The notes under the pieces: generated by a model
Database searches by the model: none
Seen by the model: only the letters and a program-made list of their open reading frames with translations
Told to the model about the DNA's origin: nothing
Part shown: in pieces, positions 15,068 through 29,344 of the stretch
How positions within the stretch are numbered: the first letter of the stretch is position 1
Layout: every line of letters starts with the position of its first letter
Program-made: the position numbers and the translations under genes
DNA from: Bacteroidetes bacterium 46-16
GTDB lineage: Bacteria > Bacteroidota > Bacteroidia > Chitinophagales > Chitinophagaceae
Assembly (NCBI GenBank): GCA_001897835.1
Contig: MKUN01000027.1
Location: 1-64,000 of the forward strand
Direction: 5' to 3'
Length of the DNA stretch: 64,000 nucleotides

Positions 15068-16789
15068 ATGGGACACACAAATCGCCGTCAATTTTTTCAG
15101 CAGGTAACAGGAGGCAGTTCTGTAGCAGATACTAAAGCTTATAGCATAGCTGAGGACAAAATATTTCAGAAATATGCCAATAAAGAGCTTCCACACGGCT
15201 ACGCCAAAGCAACTGCAAGCCTTAACCCATACTCGGGGCCATGGACCGAAACACAGGTAATGCACCTGCTGCGCCGCACTACTTTTGGTGTAAAAGCCCA
15301 GGATGTTGCCACACTCAAAGGCATGACCCTAGACCAGGCGGTTTACTATCTCATAAATAATACAAACCCCAACCCTGCCCCTCCGCTTAATTATTACCAG
15401 GATACATACGCCGATCCTACCGGCGTACCGATGGGCCAAACATGGGTAAATGCCCCTTATGGTGATGGCAGCGTTAACTCTTTAAGGCGTGCCTCGCTCA
15501 AAGCGTGGTGGATAGGCCTTATGTTAAATGAAGGCATCAGCATACAGGAAAAAATGAATTTTTTCTGGCATAACCATTTCGCTACACAAACCAACGTGAT
15601 AGGCGATGCGCGCATGTGCTATAATTATCATGCTATGCTCCGTGCCAATAGCCTGGGCAACTTTAAAACAATGGTAAAGCTGGTTACCAAAGACCCGGCA
15701 ATGCTGCAATACCTGAATGGCTACCTGAATAACAAGAACGCTCCCGATGAGAACTATGGCCGCGAATTGCAGGAACTGTTCACCGTGAGCAAATACAATA
15801 ATCCCAACTATACCGAAGATGATATCAAAGCCGCTGCAAAAGTGCTTACCGGCTGGAAAATAAACACCAGCACCCTCACCAGCTATTTCGACCCCTCACT
15901 GCATGATACCAGCAACAAGCAATTCTCTTCTTTCTATGGCAATGCTGTTATCGCCGGGCAGAGTGGTATGGCGGGTGCCAATGAAACAGACCAGTTGATC
16001 GATATGCTGCTGGCTAAATTCGAGACCGCAAAATATATCTGTTCTAAGCTGTACCGCTTTTTCGTTTATTACAATATAGATGCTAATATCGACGCTACTG
16101 TGATCACCCCGCTGGCACAGATACTGGTAGATAATAACTTCGAGATCAAGCCCGTGCTTACTGCTTTATTTAAGAGCGCGCACTTCTATGATGTTAATAA
16201 TATGGGCTGCTATGTACGCACACCCCTCGAATATATATTAGGCACTTTCCGCACGTTCGATATGCAGCTTCCTGCCAACTATACAGTAGCGGATACTTAT
16301 AATGCATGGAACTACCTGCGCAATTACAGTCTTAACATAGGCCTTGACCTTGGCGACCCGCCAAATGTTGCCGGCTGGCCTGCTTTTTACCAGACCCCCC
16401 AGTATTACGAACTGTGGATCAACTCGGCAACACTGCCCAACCGTATGCTCTTTACTGATAAGGCTGTTAACTCAGGTGTAGGCAACGGCCCTAACATGAA
16501 CATTAAAATAGATGTGTTAAATTTTACACAACAATGTACTAATGCTAGTGATCCTGATGCACTTATTGATTATGTTTGTTCATACCTTTTAGGTGTTGCC
16601 GCTTCGGCTACCGAGCATGCCAGCATAAAGAGCATCCTTTTATCTGCACAGCAAAACAATTCTTTCTGGACAGATGCATGGCATGACTATGTAAACAGCC
16701 CGAATGCAACCAATACTGCGATCGTAGAAACCAGGCTAAGGTCTATGTACACATACATTACGCGCCTTGCAGAACATCATTTATGCTGA
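15068..16789 (+). CDS. DUF1800 domain-containing protein
   Basis: A 573-residue protein matching the DUF1800 family: MHLLRRTTFGVKAQDV near the N-terminus, KMNFFWHNHFATQTNV, YGRELQELFTVSKYN, VLTGWKIN, and a C-terminal NVAGWPAFY. The N-terminus NRRQFFQQV recalls a Tat-type twin-arginine start, though a typical hydrophobic core is not obvious. DUF1800 genes are usually paired with DUF1501 genes, as here (16-base gap), and are thought to act outside the cytoplasm; their activity is unknown. Confidence 0.9.
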   Translation: MGHTNRRQFFQQVTGGSSVADTKAYSIAEDKIFQKYANKELPHGYAKATASLNPYSGPWTETQVMHLLRRTTFGVKAQDVATLKGMTLDQAVYYLINNTNPNPAPPLNYYQDTYADPTGVPMGQTWVNAPYGDGSVNSLRRASLKAWWIGLMLNEGISIQEKMNFFWHNHFATQTNVIGDARMCYNYHAMLRANSLGNFKTMVKLVTKDPAMLQYLNGYLNNKNAPDENYGRELQELFTVSKYNNPNYTEDDIKAAAKVLTGWKINTSTLTSYFDPSLHDTSNKQFSSFYGNAVIAGQSGMAGANETDQLIDMLLAKFETAKYICSKLYRFFVYYNIDANIDATVITPLAQILVDNNFEIKPVLTALFKSAHFYDVNNMGCYVRTPLEYILGTFRTFDMQLPANYTVADTYNAWNYLRNYSLNIGLDLGDPPNVAGWPAFYQTPQYYELWINSATLPNRMLFTDKAVNSGVGNGPNMNIKIDVLNFTQQCTNASDPDALIDYVCSYLLGVAASATEHASIKSILLSAQQNNSFWTDAWHDYVNSPNATNTAIVETRLRSMYTYITRLAEHHLC

Positions 16790-16805
16790 TCTAAATGCTA
16801 TAAAG

Positions 16806-18386
16806 ATGAAACGCAGAAATTTTTTGAAGATACCCGCCTTCGCTGGTTTGGCCTATATGGTCAGGGGTCTTCCGATAAGAGCTTATGCGCAATCTCCGCT
16901 TTTACAGGCTATCACAAGACAAACACAGGCTACCGGCCGTGTGCTGGTGCTCATCCAACTGAATGGGGGTAACGATGGGCTTAATACTATTGTCCCGCTC
17001 GATCAGTATAGTGCATTATCCGGCCTGCGCTCCAATGTAATGGTATCGGAGAGTAAGATATTGAGCCTTTCAGGCATACAAAATACAGGTATGCACCCGG
17101 CAATGGAGGATATCCGCAATATGTATAATGGCGGCCTCGTAAATATTGTACAGGGTGTAGGTTATGCCAATCCCAATTTTTCTCATTTTCGCTCCACCGA
17201 TATCTGGACCACAGGTTCTGATGCCGACCAGAACCTCAGTACTGGCTGGCTGGGCCGTTACCTCGACCTCGAATACCCCGGTTATCCCACAGGCTATCCC
17301 AATAACGATATGCCCGACCCACCGGCCATCCAGATAGGTACTGGTATATCCAACGTATTGCAGGGATCGGCCATTAATATGGGCTATGCCATTGCCAATG
17401 TCAATAGCTTTTACGATCTCGTTAATAACTCCGTTGGTCCTGCACCTAATACGGCTGCCGGCCACGAGCTTACCTTTATTCGCAACATTGCACAGCAGAC
17501 AGAGGGTTATACCTCCATCATACAACAAGCCACAAGCCTTAATACAAACCAGGGATCTTACCCGGTCAATAATCCCCTGGCCGACCAGTTAAAGATAGTA
17601 GCCCAGTTAATAGCCGGAGGTCTGCAGACATCAATATACGTGGTCAGCCTCGGAGGTTTTGATACCCATGCCAACCAAACGGAAGGAACATACAATGAAA
17701 GCGGGCCACATGCCGCCTTGCTCAGGCAGCTTTCCGAAGCGGTAAGCGCTTTCTTTACCGACCTGCAAGGTCATGGTATCGATCAGCGTGTTACGGCAAT
17801 GACCTTCTCCGAGTTTGGTCGCCGCATCAAATCCAATCAAAGCGGCGGTACCGATCATGGTTCAGCGGCCCCTCTTATGGTCTTCGGGCCTAATGTCAAC
17901 CCACGTATCATAGGGCACAACCCGGTCATATCACCCGACACAACGGTCAATGATAATATCCCCATGCAGTTCGATTACCGTTCTGTATATGCTTCGGTAC
18001 TTACCGACTGGTTCGGTATTACTCCGCAGGCTGTAAACGGTGTCCTGATGCATGACTATCCCATACTGCCCATCTTCAGGGAAAACTCGGCAACAGCAGT
18101 TGAGGAGATCACAGGCAGCATTTCAGCAGCCGATATGCTGGGGCAAAATTATCCCAATCCTTTCTCGCGCACCGCTACCGTTAGTTTCACGAGCAAGGGT
18201 GGCACAGTTACACTGCAAATATTTGATATCAGCGGCAGGCTGGTAAGAACAGTATTGCAAAAAGACTATATCCCCGGCCGTCACGAGGTAGCTATCGACA
18301 GGTCAGGTCTTGCAGCAGGTAATTATCTGTACCGCCTCACCAATGGCAGCGACCAGGCCACTAAAAAGATGATAATAATAGATTAA
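16806..18386 (+). CDS. DUF1501 domain-containing protein with Tat-like signal and T9SS sorting tail
   Basis: I place the start at 16806 because MKRRNFLKIPAFAGLAYM is a twin-arginine signal (RRNFLK). The 526-residue product has the DUF1501 features LIQLNGGNDGLNTIVPLDQY, NFSHFRSTDIW, SLGGFDTHANQ, TFSEFGRRIKSNQSGGTDHG; the family is related to sulfatase/phosphatase-like folds. The last 85 residues are a Por/T9SS tail: GQNYPNPF, LQIFDISGRLV, GLAAGNYLYRL and a basic end. It probably exits by Tat, then crosses the outer membrane by T9SS (inference). It is paired with the DUF1800 gene. Confidence 0.9.
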   Translation: MKRRNFLKIPAFAGLAYMVRGLPIRAYAQSPLLQAITRQTQATGRVLVLIQLNGGNDGLNTIVPLDQYSALSGLRSNVMVSESKILSLSGIQNTGMHPAMEDIRNMYNGGLVNIVQGVGYANPNFSHFRSTDIWTTGSDADQNLSTGWLGRYLDLEYPGYPTGYPNNDMPDPPAIQIGTGISNVLQGSAINMGYAIANVNSFYDLVNNSVGPAPNTAAGHELTFIRNIAQQTEGYTSIIQQATSLNTNQGSYPVNNPLADQLKIVAQLIAGGLQTSIYVVSLGGFDTHANQTEGTYNESGPHAALLRQLSEAVSAFFTDLQGHGIDQRVTAMTFSEFGRRIKSNQSGGTDHGSAAPLMVFGPNVNPRIIGHNPVISPDTTVNDNIPMQFDYRSVYASVLTDWFGITPQAVNGVLMHDYPILPIFRENSATAVEEITGSISAADMLGQNYPNPFSRTATVSFTSKGGTVTLQIFDISGRLVRTVLQKDYIPGRHEVAIDRSGLAAGNYLYRLTNGSDQATKKMIIID

Positions 18387-20043: not shown

Positions 20044-22350
20044 TTAGAATTTATATGTGGCGGTGATTTTGATAAAAAACGGTGTGCCGGGTGTATAGCA
20101 AATATCAGTTTGCGGAGGAATGTCTTGCGTCACTTCGCTCCTTAGCCGCGTTTCGGTGGCAAACTGTGCCTCCCTCCATTCTGTGTTCAACAGGTTTTGC
20201 ACTTGTACACCAAGCTCGTACCGAGGTCTTATATAATTGATCACCGCATCGCATACAGTATAGCCCTGCGCAACAAGCGAATTGTCTTCAATAGCGGGCC
20301 TGTCGGCCATATAACGATACCGCAATCCGGCATTCAGGTCCTTATGTATTTTAAACGTCAGCCCCCCAATAGAAGTGAAGGCAGCGGCCAGTGGCACATA
20401 GTTCTCTCCTTGTGGCTCATCCCGGTAGCGGACATGGGCATAATTGGCATCTGCATCAGCATACAGCCATTTCAGTATTTCATAACGTAGTGACAGGTCC
20501 ATACCCCGTCTCCTCGTTCGTCCCGAAGGCTCTATAACGCCCCCGTCTCCACTATAAGTAAATTCCTGCTGCAGGTCCAGCTGCCATACGGCGAAAGATA
20601 CCAGCAGTTTATCATAAGGCTTCATAATTAGTCCAAGGTCCATCGAGCTGGCAAGGGGTAATATATGGCCTATTACAGCGGCTTCTCCATGCTGCACTCC
20701 TGCCGACAAAGTTCTTGTATCATTCGAATGGAAACCTATACCGTAGCTATAGTATATCCTTGCATTATCCAGTATGTTGCAATGAATACCTGCCTTTGGG
20801 CTAAAAGCACTATTAGTATAATTATAATCCTTTCGCTCTGCAGCAGGCATCTTGTCGTGGTAGTCTTGTATGAAATAATCGAATCTTGTGCCTGCATTAA
20901 GTACAAGACCGGGCAGCAGGTCGATAGTTTCATTAAGGTATGCGTATAGGTTGCTTTCATTAATATCCCCATAGGCTATACGCTTAAGTAAAATATTTTC
21001 ATTAACAGTATGGCTCAGCTCGCTGTTCTGTATGTTGTCATATCTCATGCCTATACCCACTTCTGTTTTTGTCCTCATTCGTCCTATGTTATAGCGGGTA
21101 TTGTATGCTGCATTGTAGCCACCGAACACTCTTTGTTCTGCCTGGTGTATCTCATCGCCATTCACGGTATCTTCGAGGAAATAGGTGAAATCTGAATACA
21201 GGCTGAAATCATAATAACCGGCATAAATATTGGCTTTCAGATAGCTGTTGTTCGATATGGATTGAAAATATTGCACATTTACAGTGTACCTGCCAGTGCT
21301 GCCACCTTCGCCATCCAGCTCACCGAAACGATCTATGATACCTTCACTCACAGCCCGTTCCGGTATTTGCCCCGATGCATTCCAATAAGTATGAAAGCCC
21401 GACAGGGTAATACTTAACTTCTTCTTGTCCGAAATATAGCTAGTGTATTTGCCGCTAAGGTTGAAGCGGTTAAAGTCTTGCGACCGGTCAAAATAACTGC
21501 GGTTATAACCATATTCACCTGCCACATATGCGGTATGGCGACCTCCTGTTGTGTTCCGGTCGAAAAGGTCTATGCCTGCTGCAGCACGGAGGTACCCGTA
21601 ACTGCCTCCGTCCAGTTTTACGAAACTTTTATCAAGGTGATCTTTTGTTTTGAACTCAACCCAGCCGGCAGTGGTAAGATTACCTTTGTCGATACGGTAA
21701 GGCCCTTTACCAAAATTCAATTCGCCGACCAGCTCAGGTATGATAAAATGTGAATCTGCAAATCCCTGCCCATGTGCATGCGATATCATGTTCACAGGCA
21801 TACCATCCACACTTACATTCACATCGGTACCATGGTCGCAATCAAAGCCACGCAAAAATACCTGTTCAGCCTTGCCGCCTCCCTGGTGCTGAGATGTAAA
21901 AAGCCCCGGTACCAGCCGCATCAGGTCTTGTGTGTTGTTTACCGGTCTTTGTTTCAGGTCCAGTTCGCTTAGAGTTCCCAGGCCAATGTCTTTTTTCGAA
22001 CTGATGGCCACTTCACTCATTTTTATTGAACTGGGTTGCAGATTAAAGATTAGGCCGGTAGTAACACCATCTTCTATCTCCACTTGCCGGATAATGGTTT
22101 CAAAACCTACCAGGCTCACAGTGATCCAGTATTTCCCTTTCTGCAGCCCCTTTACAAAAAAGTGCCCCAGTGCATCTGTAGCGGCTCCCTGTCCCGTGTT
22201 TTTAACGTAAATACTTGCACCCTCAACCGGTTTCCCGCCCGGGTTTTCATATACGATACCTTTTATACTGCCCGTATGTGCAAAGGTCTCTGCTGCAATA
22301 CAGCACAGCAGGCAACATAGCAAGAGTTTGAAAGTAAAGCGATGTGTCAT
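20044..22350 (-). CDS. TonB-dependent outer-membrane receptor
   Basis: A 768-residue receptor: signal peptide (1-24), a carboxypeptidase-regulatory-like domain (about 25-110: GSIKGIVYENPGGKPVEGAS), a plug (LMRLVPGLFTSQHQGG, VFLRGFDCDHG, TDVNVSVDGMPVN), and a barrel ending in the aromatic ITATYKF. The plug contains SHAHGQGFADSHF, so several histidines lie near the ligand side. It takes up a ligand with TonB energy. It lies 12 bases after the HupE-like gene in a minus-strand operon, which suggests a shared substrate, possibly a metal complex (inference). It is not a SusC homologue and no susD is present. Confidence 0.9.
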   Translation of the reverse strand: MTHRFTFKLLLCCLLCCIAAETFAHTGSIKGIVYENPGGKPVEGASIYVKNTGQGAATDALGHFFVKGLQKGKYWITVSLVGFETIIRQVEIEDGVTTGLIFNLQPSSIKMSEVAISSKKDIGLGTLSELDLKQRPVNNTQDLMRLVPGLFTSQHQGGGKAEQVFLRGFDCDHGTDVNVSVDGMPVNMISHAHGQGFADSHFIIPELVGELNFGKGPYRIDKGNLTTAGWVEFKTKDHLDKSFVKLDGGSYGYLRAAAGIDLFDRNTTGGRHTAYVAGEYGYNRSYFDRSQDFNRFNLSGKYTSYISDKKKLSITLSGFHTYWNASGQIPERAVSEGIIDRFGELDGEGGSTGRYTVNVQYFQSISNNSYLKANIYAGYYDFSLYSDFTYFLEDTVNGDEIHQAEQRVFGGYNAAYNTRYNIGRMRTKTEVGIGMRYDNIQNSELSHTVNENILLKRIAYGDINESNLYAYLNETIDLLPGLVLNAGTRFDYFIQDYHDKMPAAERKDYNYTNSAFSPKAGIHCNILDNARIYYSYGIGFHSNDTRTLSAGVQHGEAAVIGHILPLASSMDLGLIMKPYDKLLVSFAVWQLDLQQEFTYSGDGGVIEPSGRTRRRGMDLSLRYEILKWLYADADANYAHVRYRDEPQGENYVPLAAAFTSIGGLTFKIHKDLNAGLRYRYMADRPAIEDNSLVAQGYTVCDAVINYIRPRYELGVQVQNLLNTEWREAQFATETRLRSEVTQDIPPQTDICYTPGTPFFIKITATYKF

Positions 22351-22362
22351 ACCTGCCTGTTA

Positions 22363-23022
22363 TTAACTAATGAAGAATATCCTTTCCAGGGTCCAGTATC
22401 CTGCCACCAGCGCTATAAGCAGGGAGGCAGGGATGACAACAAGCCTGCGATACCATAGCTTGCCAGCAAACTGGCGGGCCACAACCAGGTACATGAACAG
22501 GATGATGGTCAGTTGTCCCAACTCCACACCCACATTAAAACTTATTAGTGCAGTGGCAAATGCATATTGAGGCATACCCAGTTGCGATAGGGCCCCCGCA
22601 AAACCCATACCATGCACCATACCGAACAGGAATACCATCACCATCCGCCAGGGTTTTACCTTATTCGAATAAATATTTTCAACTGCAAGAAATACGATCG
22701 ATAAAGCGATCAGGGGCTCTACGATATTAGTTGGCGGTTTGATGATCCCATACATGGCCAGACCCAGTGTTATAGAATGGGCTATCGTAAACATCGATGC
22801 CTGTAGTATGATCTTCTTAAGGCTGGTATTGAGAAAAAATACACAAAGGATAAAAAGTATATGATCAAAGCCCAATGGAATGATATGCTCATAGCCAAGC
22901 ACCAGGTATTTCATAAATACCGATCCCCCGCTTTCTTTATCAAGCTGGTAATTTATGGTATGCGCCCATGCAGGAAAAGCAAAAGGCAGTAGCAATAACA
23001 GCAATAACAGGCTTTTTTTCAT
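22363..23022 (-). CDS. HupE/UreJ-like membrane protein
   Basis: A 219-residue protein with a signal-like first helix and about six further helices. It carries the conserved blocks of the HupE/UreJ_2 family: GFDHILFILCVFFL, FTIAHSITLGLAMYG, VEPLIALSIVFLAVEN and FGMVHGMGFAGAL. The conserved His/Asp residues in the helices are the likely metal sites; classical HupE/UreJ proteins are nickel permeases (family knowledge). The substrate here is unproven. It sits between the TPR lipoprotein (7-base gap) and the receptor (12-base gap), so the three are surely co-transcribed. Confidence 0.85.
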   Translation of the reverse strand: MKKSLLLLLLLLPFAFPAWAHTINYQLDKESGGSVFMKYLVLGYEHIIPLGFDHILFILCVFFLNTSLKKIILQASMFTIAHSITLGLAMYGIIKPPTNIVEPLIALSIVFLAVENIYSNKVKPWRMVMVFLFGMVHGMGFAGALSQLGMPQYAFATALISFNVGVELGQLTIILFMYLVVARQFAGKLWYRRLVVIPASLLIALVAGYWTLERIFFIS

Positions 23023-23029
23023 CGCTCTT

Positions 23030-24379
23030 CTATTTAGCGGCCAGTAAGGTCTTTTGGTCTATGCCGGGCAATATGCTCTTTGCCTCCTGCATCAATTGAT
23101 CACCTTTTAGCTGGTCGCCTGCGGCTGCATATATCATACCATTGCGATACAGGCTGATAGCATTTTTGCTATTGGTTCGCATGCTTTTAGCAGCATACTT
23201 TTGTGCTTCGGCATACCTGCCACTCTTATAATAGGCCCATGCGGCCAGTTCATTGGCATCAATATTATCAGGGCGCATTGCAAGATCATTAAGCGCATAT
23301 TTTATTGCTTTGTCTGCAGCCCCGGCATCTATATAGGCCATTGCCAGCTCCCTGTTCGTATTGTGTTTCACCACTTGGTCCGCCTGGTCTTTTTCACCTT
23401 CCAGCAGTAGTGTTATCACATCGTTACGTACCTCGTTGGCTTTTACTGTATCGTTTTTCAACTCATATAGGTCAGCAAGTTGTAAAACGAACATGGGCTG
23501 ACTCATAAGTTTAATAGCATGTTTGGTCAGGGCAATTGCTGAGTCATAATTCTTTTCGCTTTGGGCTACTTTTGCCAATCCTGCCAATGCATAAGGATAT
23601 TCGGGGCGATACATCAATGATGTACGGTAAGCGAATGAAGCGCTATCGTTATTGCCCGTATTCAGGTATAGGTTGCCCAGCATTACCCGGGCCCATTCTG
23701 TGCTTTCGTCACCGGGCCCGCCTGCTTCTACGGCCATTTTCATAGCGGCTATTGCTCCTTTGTTGTCGCCGTATATCTGCCTCAGGTATGATGCACGTGA
23801 GTAGGAGCGCAGGTCTGGCCTTAATCCCAGCATTTTATCGCAGTCTTTCACAGCATCATCATAATGCCCCATTTCTACGTTGGCATCCACCAGTGCACCA
23901 TATATGCCCGAATTCATACTGTTAATAGCTACAGCTTCCTCAGCCACATCCAGTGCTTCTTTGAACTGGTGCATGTTAAGCAGAACAACAGATTTTAAAT
24001 TGAGTGCTTCAAATTCCAGCTCTTTATTGGCTGCATGTTCATTGGTTACCCTGTTCAGTACTTTTATTGCTGCATTGCTGTAGTAGCCACTGTTGCCGGT
24101 TATACGCCCCTCGCTAATGTACACGCTGGCCAGTGATATAAATTGCCTGAGGTCGTCCGGGTTGTTTTTTAGCGAAGCAATAGCCTTATCATATGCTTTC
24201 TGTATCATATCCCTTTCTGCATCATTCCCTGCTTGTTTATCCCTGGCAAGCAGTGCAGGCACACTCAGTTCCTTGTTGATCTGCTCTTCATCTTTGCTGT
24301 TTGATGAATTACAGGCACTGTATAAGAAGGTGCTGAGCAGTAAAAAAAATCCGGATAGTAGTGTAATGTGGCTTTTCAT
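23030..24379 (-). CDS. TPR-repeat lipoprotein
   Basis: The ATG at 24379 gives 449 residues starting with a lipoprotein signal (ITLLSGFFLLLSTFLYSAC, cysteine about 23). The rest is a solenoid of tetratricopeptide repeats, for example FKEALDVAEEAVAINSMNSG, YDDAVKDCDKMLGLRPDLR, YDSAIALTKHAIKLM and RYAEAQKYAAKSMRTNSKN. It is anchored in the envelope and probably serves as a docking scaffold. It is the first gene after an internal hairpin in the DUF4331 locus and leads the HupE-receptor triplet. Confidence 0.85.
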   Translation of the reverse strand: MKSHITLLSGFFLLLSTFLYSACNSSNSKDEEQINKELSVPALLARDKQAGNDAERDMIQKAYDKAIASLKNNPDDLRQFISLASVYISEGRITGNSGYYSNAAIKVLNRVTNEHAANKELEFEALNLKSVVLLNMHQFKEALDVAEEAVAINSMNSGIYGALVDANVEMGHYDDAVKDCDKMLGLRPDLRSYSRASYLRQIYGDNKGAIAAMKMAVEAGGPGDESTEWARVMLGNLYLNTGNNDSASFAYRTSLMYRPEYPYALAGLAKVAQSEKNYDSAIALTKHAIKLMSQPMFVLQLADLYELKNDTVKANEVRNDVITLLLEGEKDQADQVVKHNTNRELAMAYIDAGAADKAIKYALNDLAMRPDNIDANELAAWAYYKSGRYAEAQKYAAKSMRTNSKNAISLYRNGMIYAAAGDQLKGDQLMQEAKSILPGIDQKTLLAAK

Positions 24380-24429
24380 GTGTCGTTGTTTTACAGTATA
24401 TACGTAGTGCTGAAGCAAATGGTTTTAAA

Positions 24430-24460
24430 AAAGTAAAAGGGCGCATGTAGCGCCCCTTTA
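24430..24460 (-). terminator. Hairpin with T-run inside the DUF4331-receptor locus
   Basis: GGGCGC (24439-24444) pairs with GCGCCC (24450-24455), extended by A/T pairs across a bulge. On the minus strand it is followed by a T-rich run. It lies between the second DUF4331 gene and the TPR gene, so it could terminate or attenuate transcription into the TPR-HupE-receptor part. Confidence 0.55.
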
Positions 24461-24479
24461 TTAACATTCATCATTACTG

Positions 24480-26528
24480 TTAGTTGTTGGCTTTCACCAG
24501 TTTCACCGATTGTATGGTTCTGCCCCCGGCACTAAGTCGGGCAAAGTATATCCCGCTAGCCAGGTTGCTGCCGTTCCAGTGTGCGGTATATTCACCCGCT
24601 TCTTTTTGTTCATCAGCTATTACCTGTACCAGCCTGCCATTCAGGTCTGTAATTTGCAATACGATATGTGTTTTTGCTGCCAGCCTGTATTTCAGGGTCA
24701 CATCGTTCACAAACGGGTTAGGATAGGCACTCATCGCTGCTATAGGGGCTGAAAGGCCTAACTCTTGTACACCTGTAGGTCCCGTATATTCATTGCCGGT
24801 AAAGCCGGGCCATGGTTGCTGCAGGTATGGGAAACATTGCTGGAAAGTTGTGTCATTATGGGTGATGCCTGCATTAAAATCCAACACATGCAACAGGTCG
24901 GGTGTTACCGGGTTGGTGGTAAAATCATCGTACCACAACCCTATAGCTGCCAGGGCCACGCCCGATACTGCCTGCAGTTCTATCGTAGTTACATCATCCT
25001 CGAGCCTGCGCCCGTTAGGGAAGCCATCCATATTGGGTATGAATTCGATATTAGTATTGTTATAGGCAGGGTCGGTCAGGCCGATCACTGCTGCCTTTAC
25101 AATACCCAGCGAGCTGAAATTGGGATCATTGCGCGGGGTTACCGGCACTGCCATGTTCAGGCGCAGCAGGTCTGCGAACTCAGGTGTACCAATTATTGGT
25201 GAGTACAGCAGGAAGTTATTGATGAATGGCTTGCCATTGGCCAATACATTCCCGCCCTTTCCTGTTGCCAGTTGATACGGTGCCAGGTTGGGCACACCCA
25301 TCAGGAAGATGGGCATGATATCTACTGAACGCGGGCTTGAGTTATCAGGCAGAAGGTAAGTACCATAGCCGCCTATATCTGCAAGCGCGGTGCCCGTCAA
25401 TGCCAGCTGGTTCGCTTTCAGGGGGTAAAGCCCTTCGTGCGTGTTGCGGAAGTCATATGCGCCCAGCGAATTGGTCTGTATGCGCAGGCTGTCAAGGCCC
25501 GGTACTGCACTGCCAAACTGCGAGTCGTCCATATACAGGCCCAGTTCAGGGTTCTCAAAATATTGCAGGAAGTTGCCATCTGCAGTATATGGGTTCGACC
25601 TGTTCCAGAGGTCTTTCATACCGATCGGGATAACCACTTCGTTGGTCAATGGCATACCCAGGCGCGATACCTGTACCCAGTTGCCCGAATAAGTTGGTTC
25701 ATCACCATTGGCACTAAGCGTGGTGATCTGTGGCCTGCTGGCCGATGCCCATACACCTATCACGAAGTTGCCATCCAGTATACTGCTGGCCTGTGATGTG
25801 CTTTGATTATTCTTTTGCAGCGTAGTGATCGGCACCTCGATTACGATCGAGTGGCAGTTGAATTTGGCCAGTCCGTCGCGTGCCTGTGCGCCGGTACGGA
25901 AGCCGCCCACATCAAAGGCGCCGCCAAGGTCCACGAAGAAGGGGTCATCCACTGGTCCGCAAAACAGCTGTTCGCCGGTGGTAGCGGTCATTACCGCTTG
26001 CTGCATCAGTGAGCCGTACGAAGCTGCACCCAGGCCTACCGTAGCGTTCTGTATCGAGCGTGGTCCTATATTGGGTGGGGGCACTATGCCGTTACTGGCA
26101 ATAGTTGTGAAGGTAGCGCCGCCGTCCATACTACGTTCGCAAGTGTAGGTGGTTTTTATATTCTGCTGCCCCAGCCTTATGTTGAAGAAGGTTGATGGGT
26201 CTTCATTCATATGCTGAAAGGTAAAGCGGTATATTATATTATCGCCTGCTGTGCTCGCATTGTTCTTAATATGTATCTCGTACCTGATGTTCTCGCCGAA
26301 GGTATAATAATTCGGCCCGCCTGCGGGATGCTCAAAGGGTATGTAATTTGCGATGAGCACTATTTTATTTGTGTCGCAGGGGCTCCTGAATGCATACAGG
26401 TCCGTATTGTCCGCTATTGGGTCAAACGCTATGAGCGGTGCCTCGCGGTGGCTCGATGCCTTTGCTTTTATCTGTGGCAATAAAAATATGATCAATATCG
26501 CCACGGCTTTACTAAATATATTTTTCAT
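24480..26528 (-). CDS. DUF4331 family protein with T9SS sorting tail
   Basis: A 682-residue secreted protein with signal peptide (1-24). The DUF4331 core begins with SSHREAPLIAFDPIADNTDL, the family's conserved opening with His, Arg and Glu, and continues with YAFRSP, ANYIPFEHPAGGPNYY, YTCERSMDGG, GPVDDPFFVDLGGAFDVGG, and near the end NGRRLEDDVTTIELQAVSG. The last 80 or so residues are a T9SS tail: AYPNPFVNDVTLKY, ITDLNGRLVQVI, LASGIYFARLSAGG. It therefore probably becomes surface-attached. It is the tandem paralogue of the next upstream gene, which lacks the tail. The molecular function of DUF4331 is not established. Confidence 0.88.
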   Translation of the reverse strand: MKNIFSKAVAILIIFLLPQIKAKASSHREAPLIAFDPIADNTDLYAFRSPCDTNKIVLIANYIPFEHPAGGPNYYTFGENIRYEIHIKNNASTAGDNIIYRFTFQHMNEDPSTFFNIRLGQQNIKTTYTCERSMDGGATFTTIASNGIVPPPNIGPRSIQNATVGLGAASYGSLMQQAVMTATTGEQLFCGPVDDPFFVDLGGAFDVGGFRTGAQARDGLAKFNCHSIVIEVPITTLQKNNQSTSQASSILDGNFVIGVWASASRPQITTLSANGDEPTYSGNWVQVSRLGMPLTNEVVIPIGMKDLWNRSNPYTADGNFLQYFENPELGLYMDDSQFGSAVPGLDSLRIQTNSLGAYDFRNTHEGLYPLKANQLALTGTALADIGGYGTYLLPDNSSPRSVDIMPIFLMGVPNLAPYQLATGKGGNVLANGKPFINNFLLYSPIIGTPEFADLLRLNMAVPVTPRNDPNFSSLGIVKAAVIGLTDPAYNNTNIEFIPNMDGFPNGRRLEDDVTTIELQAVSGVALAAIGLWYDDFTTNPVTPDLLHVLDFNAGITHNDTTFQQCFPYLQQPWPGFTGNEYTGPTGVQELGLSAPIAAMSAYPNPFVNDVTLKYRLAAKTHIVLQITDLNGRLVQVIADEQKEAGEYTAHWNGSNLASGIYFARLSAGGRTIQSVKLVKANN

Positions 26529-26557
26529 GATCGTTTCTTTTGTCTTTAATAATGTAA

Positions 26558-28306
26558 TTAGAATCTTGCCTGTGGTGTATAATCATATCCCCTCCATGGC
26601 TGCTGCTCATATGGGAACACCGCCTGGAAAGTGGTATCATTATGTGTTGGCCCTGCGGTAAACTGTAGCACAGCCTGCAGGTCGGCGGTTACAGGGCTGT
26701 TGGGCGCCATGTAATCATCATACCATAAACCTATAGCTGCCAGTGCCACGCCCGATACGGCCTGTAGTTCTATTGTGGTCACATCATCCTCAAGCCTGCG
26801 GCCATTGGGGAAGCCATCCATGTTAGGGATGAATTCGATATTCGTATTGGCATAGGTGGGGTCGGTAAGTCCCAGCACTGCTGCCTGTACGATACCCAGT
26901 GAACTGAATGCGGGATCGTTGCGTGGCGTAGGTGGCACGGCCATGTTCAGGCGCAGCATATCACCCAGCGTTGGCAGGAAGTTGTTGATGAATGGTTTGC
27001 CCTGCGCTAGCGGGTCTCCGTTTTTACCTGTAGCAAGTTGGTATGGGTCCAGGTTGGGTACACCGGTATAGAATATCGGCAATATATCTACAGCACGCGG
27101 GCTTACTGAGTCGGGTAGCAATATGGTACCAAACACAGCATCGTCAAGAGCTGTACCGGCTACTGCGGGCGAGCCCTTCAATGCCCATAAGCCTGCCTTG
27201 CCATTACGGAAGTCAAACGACCCAAGCGAATTGCTTTGTATGCGCAAAGCACTCAATGCAGGCACTGCAGCGCCATATTGCGAGTTATCCATGTACAGTG
27301 CCAGTTCGGGATTTTTAAAGTAATCGGCAAACTGTATGTCATTGGCAGGATTGCTTGCATTCCATTTGTCCTTCATACCCAACGGTATCACAGCTTCATT
27401 GGTCAGCGGCATACCCAGGCGTGATACCTGTACCCAGTTATTGGTATAAGTATCTGTACCATTGGCATTGAGCGTTTTTATTTGCCTGCGGCTTGCCGAG
27501 GCCCACACACCAATTACAAAATCACCATCCAGTATGTTAGCTGCCATGTCCGGGGTCTTGCCGTCTTTCTGTAGTGTACTGATGGGGATCTCGAGGGCTA
27601 TGCTGTGTACATTGAAGCGGGCCAGCCCGTCTTTCGTTGGGTTAGTGGCATTGCCTTCCGGCCTGAAGTTGCCTACATCAAATACACCGCCAAGGTCCAC
27701 GAAAAAAGGATCATCCACCGGTCCGCAGAATACTTTTTCACCGGTATTGGCAGTGCCTATGGCCTGTTGCATCAGGCTCATATAACTTGCTGCACCCAGT
27801 CCCACCGTGCCATCTTCTATCGAGCGGGGCCCTATATTGGGTGGCGGCACAATGCCATTACTGTATATTGTAGTAAAGGTATTGCCACCATCAGTGCTGC
27901 GCTCGCAGGTATATGTGGTTTTCAGGTTTTGCTGTCCCAGCCTGATGTTGAAAAAAGTACTTGCGTCCTGGTTGCTTTGCGCAAAGGTGAAACGATAAGT
28001 TATATCGTCCGCAGTGGTCGCCGTGCTGTTTTTGATGTGTATCTCGTAGCGCACATCCGGCGAGAAGTTGTAATAATTGGGCCCGCCCTCCGGCAATTCA
28101 AAAGGGATGTAATTAGCAATAATGATCACCTTCGTGGGGTCATCGGGGCTGCGGAAAGCATACAGGTCTGTATTATCCGCCAGCGGGTCTCGTGATATGA
28201 GTGGTGCCTCCCTGTGGCTCGATGCATAGCTCTGAAGCGTAGCGCCAAGCAAACCAAGTAGCACACCATACACCCGCAATCTTCTTAGTAAGGGATGTTT
28301 TTTCAT
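26558..28306 (-). CDS. DUF4331 family protein without sorting tail
   Basis: A 582-residue secreted paralogue of the gene 29 bases downstream, collinear over its whole length: SSHREAPLISRDPLADNTDL, YAFRSPDDPTKVIIIANYIP, GPVDDPFFVDLGGVFDVGN, NGRRLEDDVTTIELQAVSG. The signal peptide is at about 1-28. It stops just after the QQPWRGYDY segment where the paralogue continues into a T9SS tail, so it is probably periplasmic or handed over to the tailed copy. It is the first gene of the minus-strand DUF4331-TPR-HupE-receptor locus. Confidence 0.88.
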   Translation of the reverse strand: MKKHPLLRRLRVYGVLLGLLGATLQSYASSHREAPLISRDPLADNTDLYAFRSPDDPTKVIIIANYIPFELPEGGPNYYNFSPDVRYEIHIKNSTATTADDITYRFTFAQSNQDASTFFNIRLGQQNLKTTYTCERSTDGGNTFTTIYSNGIVPPPNIGPRSIEDGTVGLGAASYMSLMQQAIGTANTGEKVFCGPVDDPFFVDLGGVFDVGNFRPEGNATNPTKDGLARFNVHSIALEIPISTLQKDGKTPDMAANILDGDFVIGVWASASRRQIKTLNANGTDTYTNNWVQVSRLGMPLTNEAVIPLGMKDKWNASNPANDIQFADYFKNPELALYMDNSQYGAAVPALSALRIQSNSLGSFDFRNGKAGLWALKGSPAVAGTALDDAVFGTILLPDSVSPRAVDILPIFYTGVPNLDPYQLATGKNGDPLAQGKPFINNFLPTLGDMLRLNMAVPPTPRNDPAFSSLGIVQAAVLGLTDPTYANTNIEFIPNMDGFPNGRRLEDDVTTIELQAVSGVALAAIGLWYDDYMAPNSPVTADLQAVLQFTAGPTHNDTTFQAVFPYEQQPWRGYDYTPQARF

Positions 28307-28444
28307 GAATAAGATGTTTTTTGCGTTATCAATACAGGTATGTACGCATTAACATCCCTTTAGGTTTTTTCTACGAGCATATTTATTTTCAAACCTTCGT
28401 AATAGTGTGATTCTTATCCACCTTACGATGGTCTATGCCTATAA

Positions 28445-28475
28445 AAAAATAGCGACAAAGACTGTCGCTATTTTT
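28445..28475. terminator. Bidirectional terminator
   Basis: AAAAATAGCGACA and TGTCGCTATTTTT form a perfect 13-bp stem with a 5-base loop. It follows the AIM24-like gene on the minus strand. The rest of 28307-28549 shows nothing clear. Confidence 0.8.
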
Positions 28476-28549
28476 AGGTCTTTCATATATCGGTTGTTCA
28501 ACCTATTCAGTTTGATCAACCAATCAACTCATTCAACTTGTCAACCAAA

Positions 28550-29344
28550 TTACTGCCATCCGTCGCCGTCCAGCAGGTTGCCCAATCCGCCAAGTATACT
28601 GCCTTCACCTTTGCGCTGCACAGTAGCATACCTTAATATACGTCCCGCCAGCCTGCTGATAGGCAGTGTTTGTACCCATACGGTGCCGGGGCCGCGCAGT
28701 GTGGCAAAGAAAACACCCTCACCGCCAAATAAAGTATTCTTTATACCACCTACGAACTGGATATCATAGTCCACACTTGCGGTGAATCCCACGATACAGC
28801 CAGTATCTATTTTGATCAGTTCGCCCGGCTGCAATTCTTTTTGTAATACATGCCCACCTGCATGGGCAAAAGCCATACCATCACCTTCCAGCTTCTCCAT
28901 GATAAAGCCTTCGCCGCCAAACAGGCCCGTACCCAGTTTCTTCTGGAATTCAATTCCTATCGCTACGCCCTTAGCGGCACAAAGGAAGGCATCCTTCTGG
29001 CAGATCACCCTGCCGCCCAGCCGCATCAGGTCCAGCGCTATGATCTTGCCCGGGTATGGCGCAGCAAAGGACACCCGGCGCTTGCCTTCTGTAGCGATAT
29101 TGGTGTAGGCTGTCATAAAAAGTCCTTCACCCACCAGCATACGTTTTCCGGCTGAGAATAATTTACCCAATATCCCGCCCTGTTGCTGGCTGCCATCGCC
29201 GAAGATTGTTTCCATTTGTATGCCATCATCCATCATCATAAAGCTGCCCGGCTCCGCTACTGCGGTTTCTTCAGGGTCCAGCTCTATCTCCACATACTGC
29301 ATCTCTTCCCCAATTATCCTGTAATCGATCTCGTGGTTGCGCAT
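28550..29344 (-). CDS. AIM24 / TIGR00266 family protein
   Basis: A 264-residue cytoplasmic protein of the AIM24 (TIGR00266) family. Visible features are [28 protein letters not shown], a Gly-rich loop [20 protein letters not shown], then repeated beta segments such as [38 protein letters not shown], and [17 protein letters not shown]. It has the fold of double-psi or jelly-roll-like trimers; its biochemical role is unknown. The gene stands alone, with a strong terminator downstream. Confidence 0.88.

Follow-up and report, generated by a model that had tools for sequence, protein, structure and literature searches.

A conserved Bacteroidota operon of DUF4331, TPR, HupE-type permease and TonB receptor genes: a candidate module for transition-metal capture

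The DUF4331 operon and its products

This study concerns five genes of Bacteroidetes bacterium 46-16, located in a window of 64,000 nt of contig MKUN01000027.1, from the start of which all coordinates are counted. The genes are located on the minus strand at positions 20044-28306 and encode, in the order of transcription, two proteins of the DUF4331 family (DUF4331a and DUF4331b), a lipoprotein with tetratricopeptide repeats (TPR), a HupE_UreJ_2 permease and a TonB-dependent receptor, with intergenic gaps of 29, 100, 7 and 12 bases (Table 1). A previous reading of this DNA, made from the letters alone and referred to here as the sequence-only reading, had described five genes on one strand with a hairpin in the 100-base gap, a His-rich plug in the receptor and anchoring of one DUF4331 protein by the type IX secretion system (T9SS). 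This layout held for every open reading frame (ORF), the plug contains the motif SHAHGQGFADSHF, and the T9SS sorting domain is present on DUF4331b alone.

Both DUF4331 proteins exceed the gathering score of PF14224 (27) and the permease exceeds that of PF13795 (24.5). A search of the whole genome yielded a single HupE_UreJ_2 gene and no DUF4331 genes other than these two. The ORF listed for the TPR lipoprotein begins at an upstream TTG codon (24418); its lipobox, LYSAC, was read by eye. The cut sites of all signal peptides mentioned below were assigned by eye and by rule rather than by a trained program.

Table 1. Features of the DUF4331 operon in the window
Feature	Position	Strand	Description
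DUF4331a	26558..28306	-	Secreted, 582 aa, no T9SS tail; PF14224, 439 bits
Ser29-Ser30-His31 of DUF4331a	28214..28222	-	Apparent mature N-terminus, possible amino-terminal Cu(II)- and Ni(II)-binding (ATCUN) site; cut site by rule
DUF4331b	24480..26528	-	682 aa, C-terminal T9SS type A sorting domain; PF14224, 420 bits
Ser25-Ser26-His27 of DUF4331b	26448..26456	-	Apparent mature N-terminus
Tail of DUF4331b			Por_Secre_tail PF18962, 42.6 bits; TIGR04183, 45.5 bits
Terminator-like hairpin, DUF4331b/TPR gap	24434..24460	-	
TPR lipoprotein	23030..24379	-	449 aa from ATG; several TPR models over cut-off
HupE_UreJ_2 permease	22363..23022	-	219 aa, apparent mature start His21; PF13795, 156 bits
TonB-dependent receptor	20044..22350	-	768 aa, apparent mature start His25; Plug, barrel, CarbopepD_reg_2
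His-rich plug motif SHAHGQGFADSHF of the receptor	21745..21783	-	

Conservation in Bacteroidota and near relatives

We compared the gene orders of loci L031-L085, which come from whole genomes of relatives and from named genome records. The counts leave out L032 and L034, which are from the same genomes as L046 and L047, and L043-L045, in which DUF4331 is split. Of the 42 loci with 1.6 kb or more of downstream sequence, 37 have a TPR gene after DUF4331; of the 37 loci in which this sequence reaches 6 kb or more, 29 have a receptor gene at most five genes away, on either strand. Judged by the titles of the records, the arrangement recurs in Chitinophagales, Cytophagales and Flavobacteria, and in part in metagenome-assembled genomes (MAGs) of Chlorobiota and Ignavibacteria. 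Among 395 Bacteroidota genomes, DUF4331 was present in 48, HupE_UreJ_2 in 115 and both in 32 (Fisher 8e-9, kinship ignored). The two families are located within 10 kb of each other in 10 of these 32 genomes, and most of the remaining DUF4331 genomes lack a HupE gene beside DUF4331. The DUF4331-DUF4331-TPR-(HupE)-TonB receptor order is a conserved operon of Bacteroidota, beyond chance. A lack of co-occurrence of these families elsewhere had been named beforehand as a result that would refute the sequence-only reading; the families were found both to co-occur and to adjoin, and the reading was not refuted.

Two long DUF4331 genes were present in 39 rows, two pairs of which are from the same genomes. 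The first copy ends about 550-570 residues past the HREAP motif and the second copy is longer in all of these except L037 (38/39), and Por_Secre_tail was identified in 19 of 55 aligned DUF4331 proteins, with first and second copies mixed. In the usual tandem, only the second copy carries a C-terminal extension, often a T9SS tail, as in the window. A short or split form was found in 25 of the 48 DUF4331 genomes. The split form of L043, L044 and L045 consists of two small genes of about 220 and 180 aa, the first for a secreted protein and the second for one with a lipoprotein-like start. A TPR gene comes next, and L043 and L045 have a receptor alongside; the second half in L043 matches PF14224. 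Fasciclin-domain genes are located near DUF4331 in L045 (8561-9118), L123 (10818-11474) and L130 (11244-11897), in both Bacteroidota and Streptomyces.

DUF4331 loci on plasmids of other phyla

A tblastn search with DUF4331a yielded 33 plasmid records, of which 22 were opened; 18 of these are annotated, and the unannotated L127, L129, L132 and L133 were left out of the neighbour counts. A core of DUF4331, a middle gene and a permease gene is present in 11 of the 18 annotated loci. The permease is of the HupE/UreJ type in seven, from three Pseudoalteromonas plasmids, Marinobacter, a Comamonadaceae bacterium and two Lichenicola plasmids, and is NicO or a "nickel transporter" in four, from three Streptomycetaceae and Nostoc, where the middle gene is a TPR gene. 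Within the HupE group, the middle gene matches TPR over the Pfam cut-off in L114 and below it in L118 and L124, and is annotated as "CDC27 family" in L115; the middle genes of the other HupE loci, including L116 and L136, are outside the domain scan. Miltoncostaea has DUF4331-TPR, and in Adhaeribacter a receptor gene is located beside DUF4331-TPR. The family was thus found in Bacteroidota, Pseudomonadota, Actinomycetota and Cyanobacteriota; none of 422 pattern matches in viral contigs encoded a DUF4331 relative.

In five Roseobacteraceae/Paracoccus plasmids (L117, L121, L126, L128 and L134), DUF4331 adjoins genes of the type II secretion system (T2SS) in every case, and a small ORF of about 70-77 aa is located behind it in four. 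DUF4331 may be a T2SS cargo in these bacteria. A sortase gene is found nearby in two of the three Streptomycetaceae loci. The surface route by which DUF4331 is exported seems to differ between lineages, as judged, beyond the T9SS tail, from the neighbouring genes.

N-terminus, conserved residues and fold of DUF4331

All 120 distinct N-termini of DUF4331 proteins contain X-X-His, with Ser-Ser in 112 and Ala-Asp in 8 before the His, preceded by A (114), S (4) or G (2); the -3 place is occupied by S, A, L, T, V, G or I. In this count identical stretches were merged, and the pattern required H-x-[DE]-x-P and then a D-rich stretch, by which many proteobacterial copies were missed. A wider alignment has 20 rows, 18 of them true DUF4331, and the proteobacterial copies in it all have X-X-His after A or G. 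No His but that of the motif reaches 80% conservation in this alignment; D44, D47, GRR 502-504, D507 and D508 are also strongly kept. A free N-terminus with X-X-His is the pattern of ATCUN sites, and the apparent Ser-Ser-His start of mature DUF4331 is a possible site of this kind, which could chelate Cu(II) or Ni(II). For the Ser-Ser forms, a cut directly before the His is allowed too.

For structure prediction, we used alignments of 44 rows (A1) and 55 rows (A2), all 55 of the latter matching PF14224; two rows of A1, L046:18956-20533 and L083:8034-9755, were rejected as DUF4331 since their BLAST match was due to the T9SS tail. The model from A2 is of middling quality, with a mean predicted local distance difference test score of 71.7, a predicted template modelling score of 0.81 and residues 1-17 below 50 by the former measure. 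Foldseek yielded no match in the PDB at E <=0.001 for either model. The VIA-align hits of the DUF4331 model include immunoglobulin (Ig) domains (best Z 8.1, 114 aligned, root-mean-square deviation 3.4), which may reflect no more than a common arrangement. The CBM74 domain of Sas6 aligned with the model from A1 only (Z 6.5, 197 aligned, deviation 4.2). Searches of the PDB by sequence gave three matches for DUF4331a at E 0.41-0.9, none at 0.001 for the receptor and a best E of 0.24 for the permease. No paper naming DUF4331 or PF14224 was found in the open-licence literature, to which that search was confined. A surface binding protein and a TonB receptor share one operon, as here, in haemophore systems such as HmuY/HmuR, from which DUF4331 differs in that it matches no haem-binding Pfam family.

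The His-tipped permease

A His directly after the apparent cut was found in all 16 Bacteroidota permease rows with a signal peptide (14 genomes), the cut being between Ala and His (A/H) or Gly and His (G/H); it is A/H in the window. The same holds for the ten DUF4331-linked plasmid permeases that were read, HupE and NicO alike (10/10; the eleventh, L130, is unread). The first helix of HupE/UreJ proteins has the signature HPxxGxDH, according to PMC7689651. The window permease has HIIPLGFDH instead, which is the variant HxxPxGxDH, so that we claim membership in the Pfam family and not the classic signature.

In the HupE/UreJ-2 permeases described in PMC12537917, Cu and Ni are bound by an N-terminal His "anglerase" domain, which has its linker at about residues 175-184. 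The same paper describes the metal binders DUF4198 and DUF6702, the latter for Ni/Cu, and contains no occurrence of DUF4331, TPR or tetratricopeptide. The permeases studied here resemble the published ones in the PF13795 domain and in the His directly after the signal peptide. The proteobacterial DUF4331 partners also share the long N-terminal region (in L114, PF13795 covers residues 178-338 of 366), and in L080 and L085, whose titles name MAGs of Chlorobiota and Ignavibacteria, a DUF6702 gene precedes a permease without a signal peptide of its own. The window permease differs in that its membrane domain is separated from the apparent cut by only about 18 residues; with PF13795 beginning at precursor residue 39 and no anglerase domain, it is not an anglerase.

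The receptor and its relatives

The receptor yielded 49 plasmid records at 1e-30 in tblastn, of which six were opened. NikR or HoxN/NixA is encoded beside or near five of the six relatives: NikR beside the receptor in Afipia (A. carboxidovorans pHCG3), Methylomagnum and a Comamonadaceae plasmid, and HoxN/NixA beside it in Bradyrhizobium and 4.4 kb off in C. necator pHG1, with hydrogenase genes near. The NikR/HoxN-linked receptors of C. necator pHG1, A. carboxidovorans pHCG3, Bradyrhizobium and Methylomagnum are about 29-33% identical to the window receptor over 80-86% of its length. They have the plug motif and the conserved His/Asp set in common with it, and two (L138 and L140) also start A/H; the window receptor differs by its extra CarbopepD_reg_2 domain. 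Among the genes around the window operon there is no NikR or HoxN/NiCoT gene. All 14 aligned receptors retain H155, D172, H173, D176, H193, D199, E206, W323 and H541, together with further residues.

An apparent A/H start was present in 25 of 34 readable receptors, a count that leaves out a false pattern match (L076) and a receptor without a readable start (L038). Among the CarbopepD_reg_2 loci of this genome, only the window receptor starts A/H in the 30 of 41 matches that were read, of which at least one (L156) has no readable start. Uptake of glycans of the SusC/SusD type is not indicated, with 36 bits against a cut-off of 368 for TIGR04056 and no SusD match among the five genes. Some TonB receptors are predicted to carry cobalt or nickel, and FrpB4 of Helicobacter is needed for nickel scavenging, according to PMC7689651 and PMC7142613. 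The FrpB4-type receptor, likened to ours by description, is of the same TonB-dependent class. We know of no link between FrpB4 and DUF4331.

Small His-containing proteins of 122-154 aa are encoded before the receptor in L048 (968-1366), L054 (15184-15552), L070 (16076-16540) and L072 (14109-14483). The three that were scanned, from L048, L054 and L072, match no Pfam family over the cut-off, and the receptors of these three loci have no A/H start.

Hairpins, regulators and neighbouring genes

Hairpins were counted in related loci by a home-made rule. Where a TPR gene follows DUF4331, 10 of 30 gaps contain one; where a second DUF4331 gene follows the first, none of 37 do, and downstream of the TPR gene 1 of 23 does. 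This distribution among the three kinds of gap suggests, without proving it, that the cell makes more DUF4331 than membrane parts. Across the region as a whole, 12 terminator-like sites were found versus 8.4 expected.

In three Pseudoalteromonas plasmids, genes for a sigma factor of the extracytoplasmic function (ECF) type and an anti-sigma factor are located directly before DUF4331 (L114 5591-6807, L115 6606-7822 and L136 4355-5559), the anti-sigma gene in L114 being RskA_C. The pair offers a handle on the signal that switches the module on.

Directly before the window operon is a gene of the AIM24/TIGR00266 family (28550-29344, minus strand), which is a neighbour in L046 as well; an inverted repeat with a T run is located between this gene and DUF4331a, at about 28440-28480 on the minus strand. 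Two adjoining plus-strand ORFs at 15068-18386, the second with a T9SS-like tail, are presumably a DUF1800/DUF1501 pair. A gene similar to the second (37% by best piece) is located beside the operon in L046.

Discussion

From the families, the conserved order, the motifs, the T9SS tail and the kinship of the receptor, we interpret the operon as an envelope module for the capture and import of a transition metal, most likely of the nickel/cobalt/copper group, at a little better than even odds (a probability of roughly 0.55). It is the NikR/HoxN-linked relatives of the receptor, the His start of the permease and the Ser-Ser-His start of DUF4331 that point to a transition metal. DUF4331b would be sorted by the T9SS to the cell surface, the tail-less DUF4331a would probably be periplasmic or released, and both copies could chelate Cu(II) or Ni(II) via their apparent Ser-Ser-His start. 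The metal, or a complex of it, would cross the outer membrane through the TonB-dependent receptor and the inner membrane through the His-tipped permease, and the TPR lipoprotein would probably keep DUF4331 close to the receptor or the permease. We infer the cut sites, the metal binding, the hand-over, the direction of import and the role of the TPR protein. The route from surface capture through outer-membrane import to inner-membrane transport that the sequence-only reading had outlined agrees with the parts, their conservation and the receptor kinship, with ligand and direction as predictions.

Several observations weigh against this interpretation. A HupE gene is at most five genes away, on either strand, in just 11 of the 37 loci with at least 6 kb downstream, and the five Roseobacteraceae/Paracoccus loci all have DUF4331 without an annotated TPR or permease gene. 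The six receptor neighbourhoods were picked by hand from the 49, partly since two are known hydrogenase plasmids. Upstream of the sixth relative, from M. extorquens CM4, is an iron-type ABC set, with the cobalamin (cob) genes only 3.4 kb off, and the Methylomagnum neighbourhood also holds siderophore and zinc-type transport genes. The A/H start is missing in 9 of the 34 receptors. No metal riboswitch and no Rfam match over the gathering score was found in positions 12000-36000 of the window and six related loci. Plain nickel is disfavoured by the lack of a match to NiFe hydrogenase, urease or CobN in this genome, and by 40 of the 48 DUF4331 genomes being without strong matches to urease and NiFe hydrogenase, a count in which G025 and G237 (hydrogenase E about 1e-4 to 6e-4) are taken as lacking.

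The guess of a metal in the sequence-only reading has gained from the receptor relatives and the N-terminal histidines; its mention of nickel has not, and a nickel supply for urease or NiFe hydrogenase is unsupported in this genome. Cobalt for B12 synthesis was rejected on the missing CobN match, with other cobalt-insertion routes, Ni superoxide dismutase and other Ni enzymes outside the search. With no match for them, the usual nickel users do not explain the module. Their absence is not decisive, because a survey (PMC2667541) includes 10 organisms that have Ni transporters but lack any known Ni enzyme. Among the 395 genomes, 5 of the 12 with a strong urease match contain DUF4331 (Fisher p 0.009, kinship ignored), to which we give little weight because three of the five are from one genus. 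Matches to methylmalonyl-CoA mutase suggest that the genome may use B12. Copper is a possible cargo, as is the metal of a user beyond those searched. The combination of a nickel/cobalt-type receptor with a genome lacking the nickel and cobalt users searched for is a puzzle that suggests a different metal or a metalloprotein as yet unrecognised.

The operon might serve maturation rather than uptake, with DUF4331 as a secreted metalloenzyme or metalloprotein that the permease and TPR protein supply with metal and mature, and with the receptor merely topping up. A receptor-less core of DUF4331, TPR-like protein and permease in Proteobacteria, Streptomycetaceae and Nostoc would agree with such a function. 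So would the conserved residues of DUF4331 other than the motif His, which exceed what a simple chelating tip needs, the hairpin pattern, which suggests DUF4331 as the main product, and the NicO partners of some DUF4331 proteins, the NicO family including exporters such as RcnA. We nevertheless consider maturation unlikely: the usual partner in Bacteroidota is a TonB receptor, of an importer class, and no enzyme-like fold was recognised for DUF4331.

The Ig-like beta-sandwich arrangement of the DUF4331 model, the fasciclin (L045, L123 and L130) and Big_9/cadherin-like (L114) genes near some loci, and the Roseobacter-type copies that stand alone beside T2SS genes would instead fit an adhesin or matrix protein on a TPR scaffold, to which the transport genes are linked for regulation. 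This seems quite improbable to us, since DUF4331 is paired again and again with a His-tipped permease, across several phyla, and with receptors of a metal-linked family. Import of an organic molecule or metal chelate as a whole, with metal binding by DUF4331 incidental, is very doubtful. In its favour, siderophores, haem and B12 are cargoes of TonB receptors with a related domain make-up, the receptor has its best NCBIfam matches among models of haem and siderophore receptors (far below the cut-off), and the possible use of B12 would suit such a cargo. Small HupE/NicO permeases are, however, known for metal ions (PMC7689651), and the receptor relatives are located beside NikR/HoxN.

Returning to the capture and import of a metal, we read DUF4331 as an undescribed component of an envelope module for this purpose. 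Quite tentatively, and with more doubt than confidence, this could be widened to a widespread, unnamed class of extracellular metal-capture proteins with an X-X-His tip, exported by lineage-specific routes (T9SS, T2SS or sortase), that with a TPR partner would hand metal to a His-tipped permease, via a TonB receptor in lineages with an outer membrane, the tandem copies working one on each side of that membrane. If true, the module would provide a first testable function for DUF4331, and would extend the newly described permeases with an N-terminal histidine to a complete route from the cell surface to the cytoplasm.

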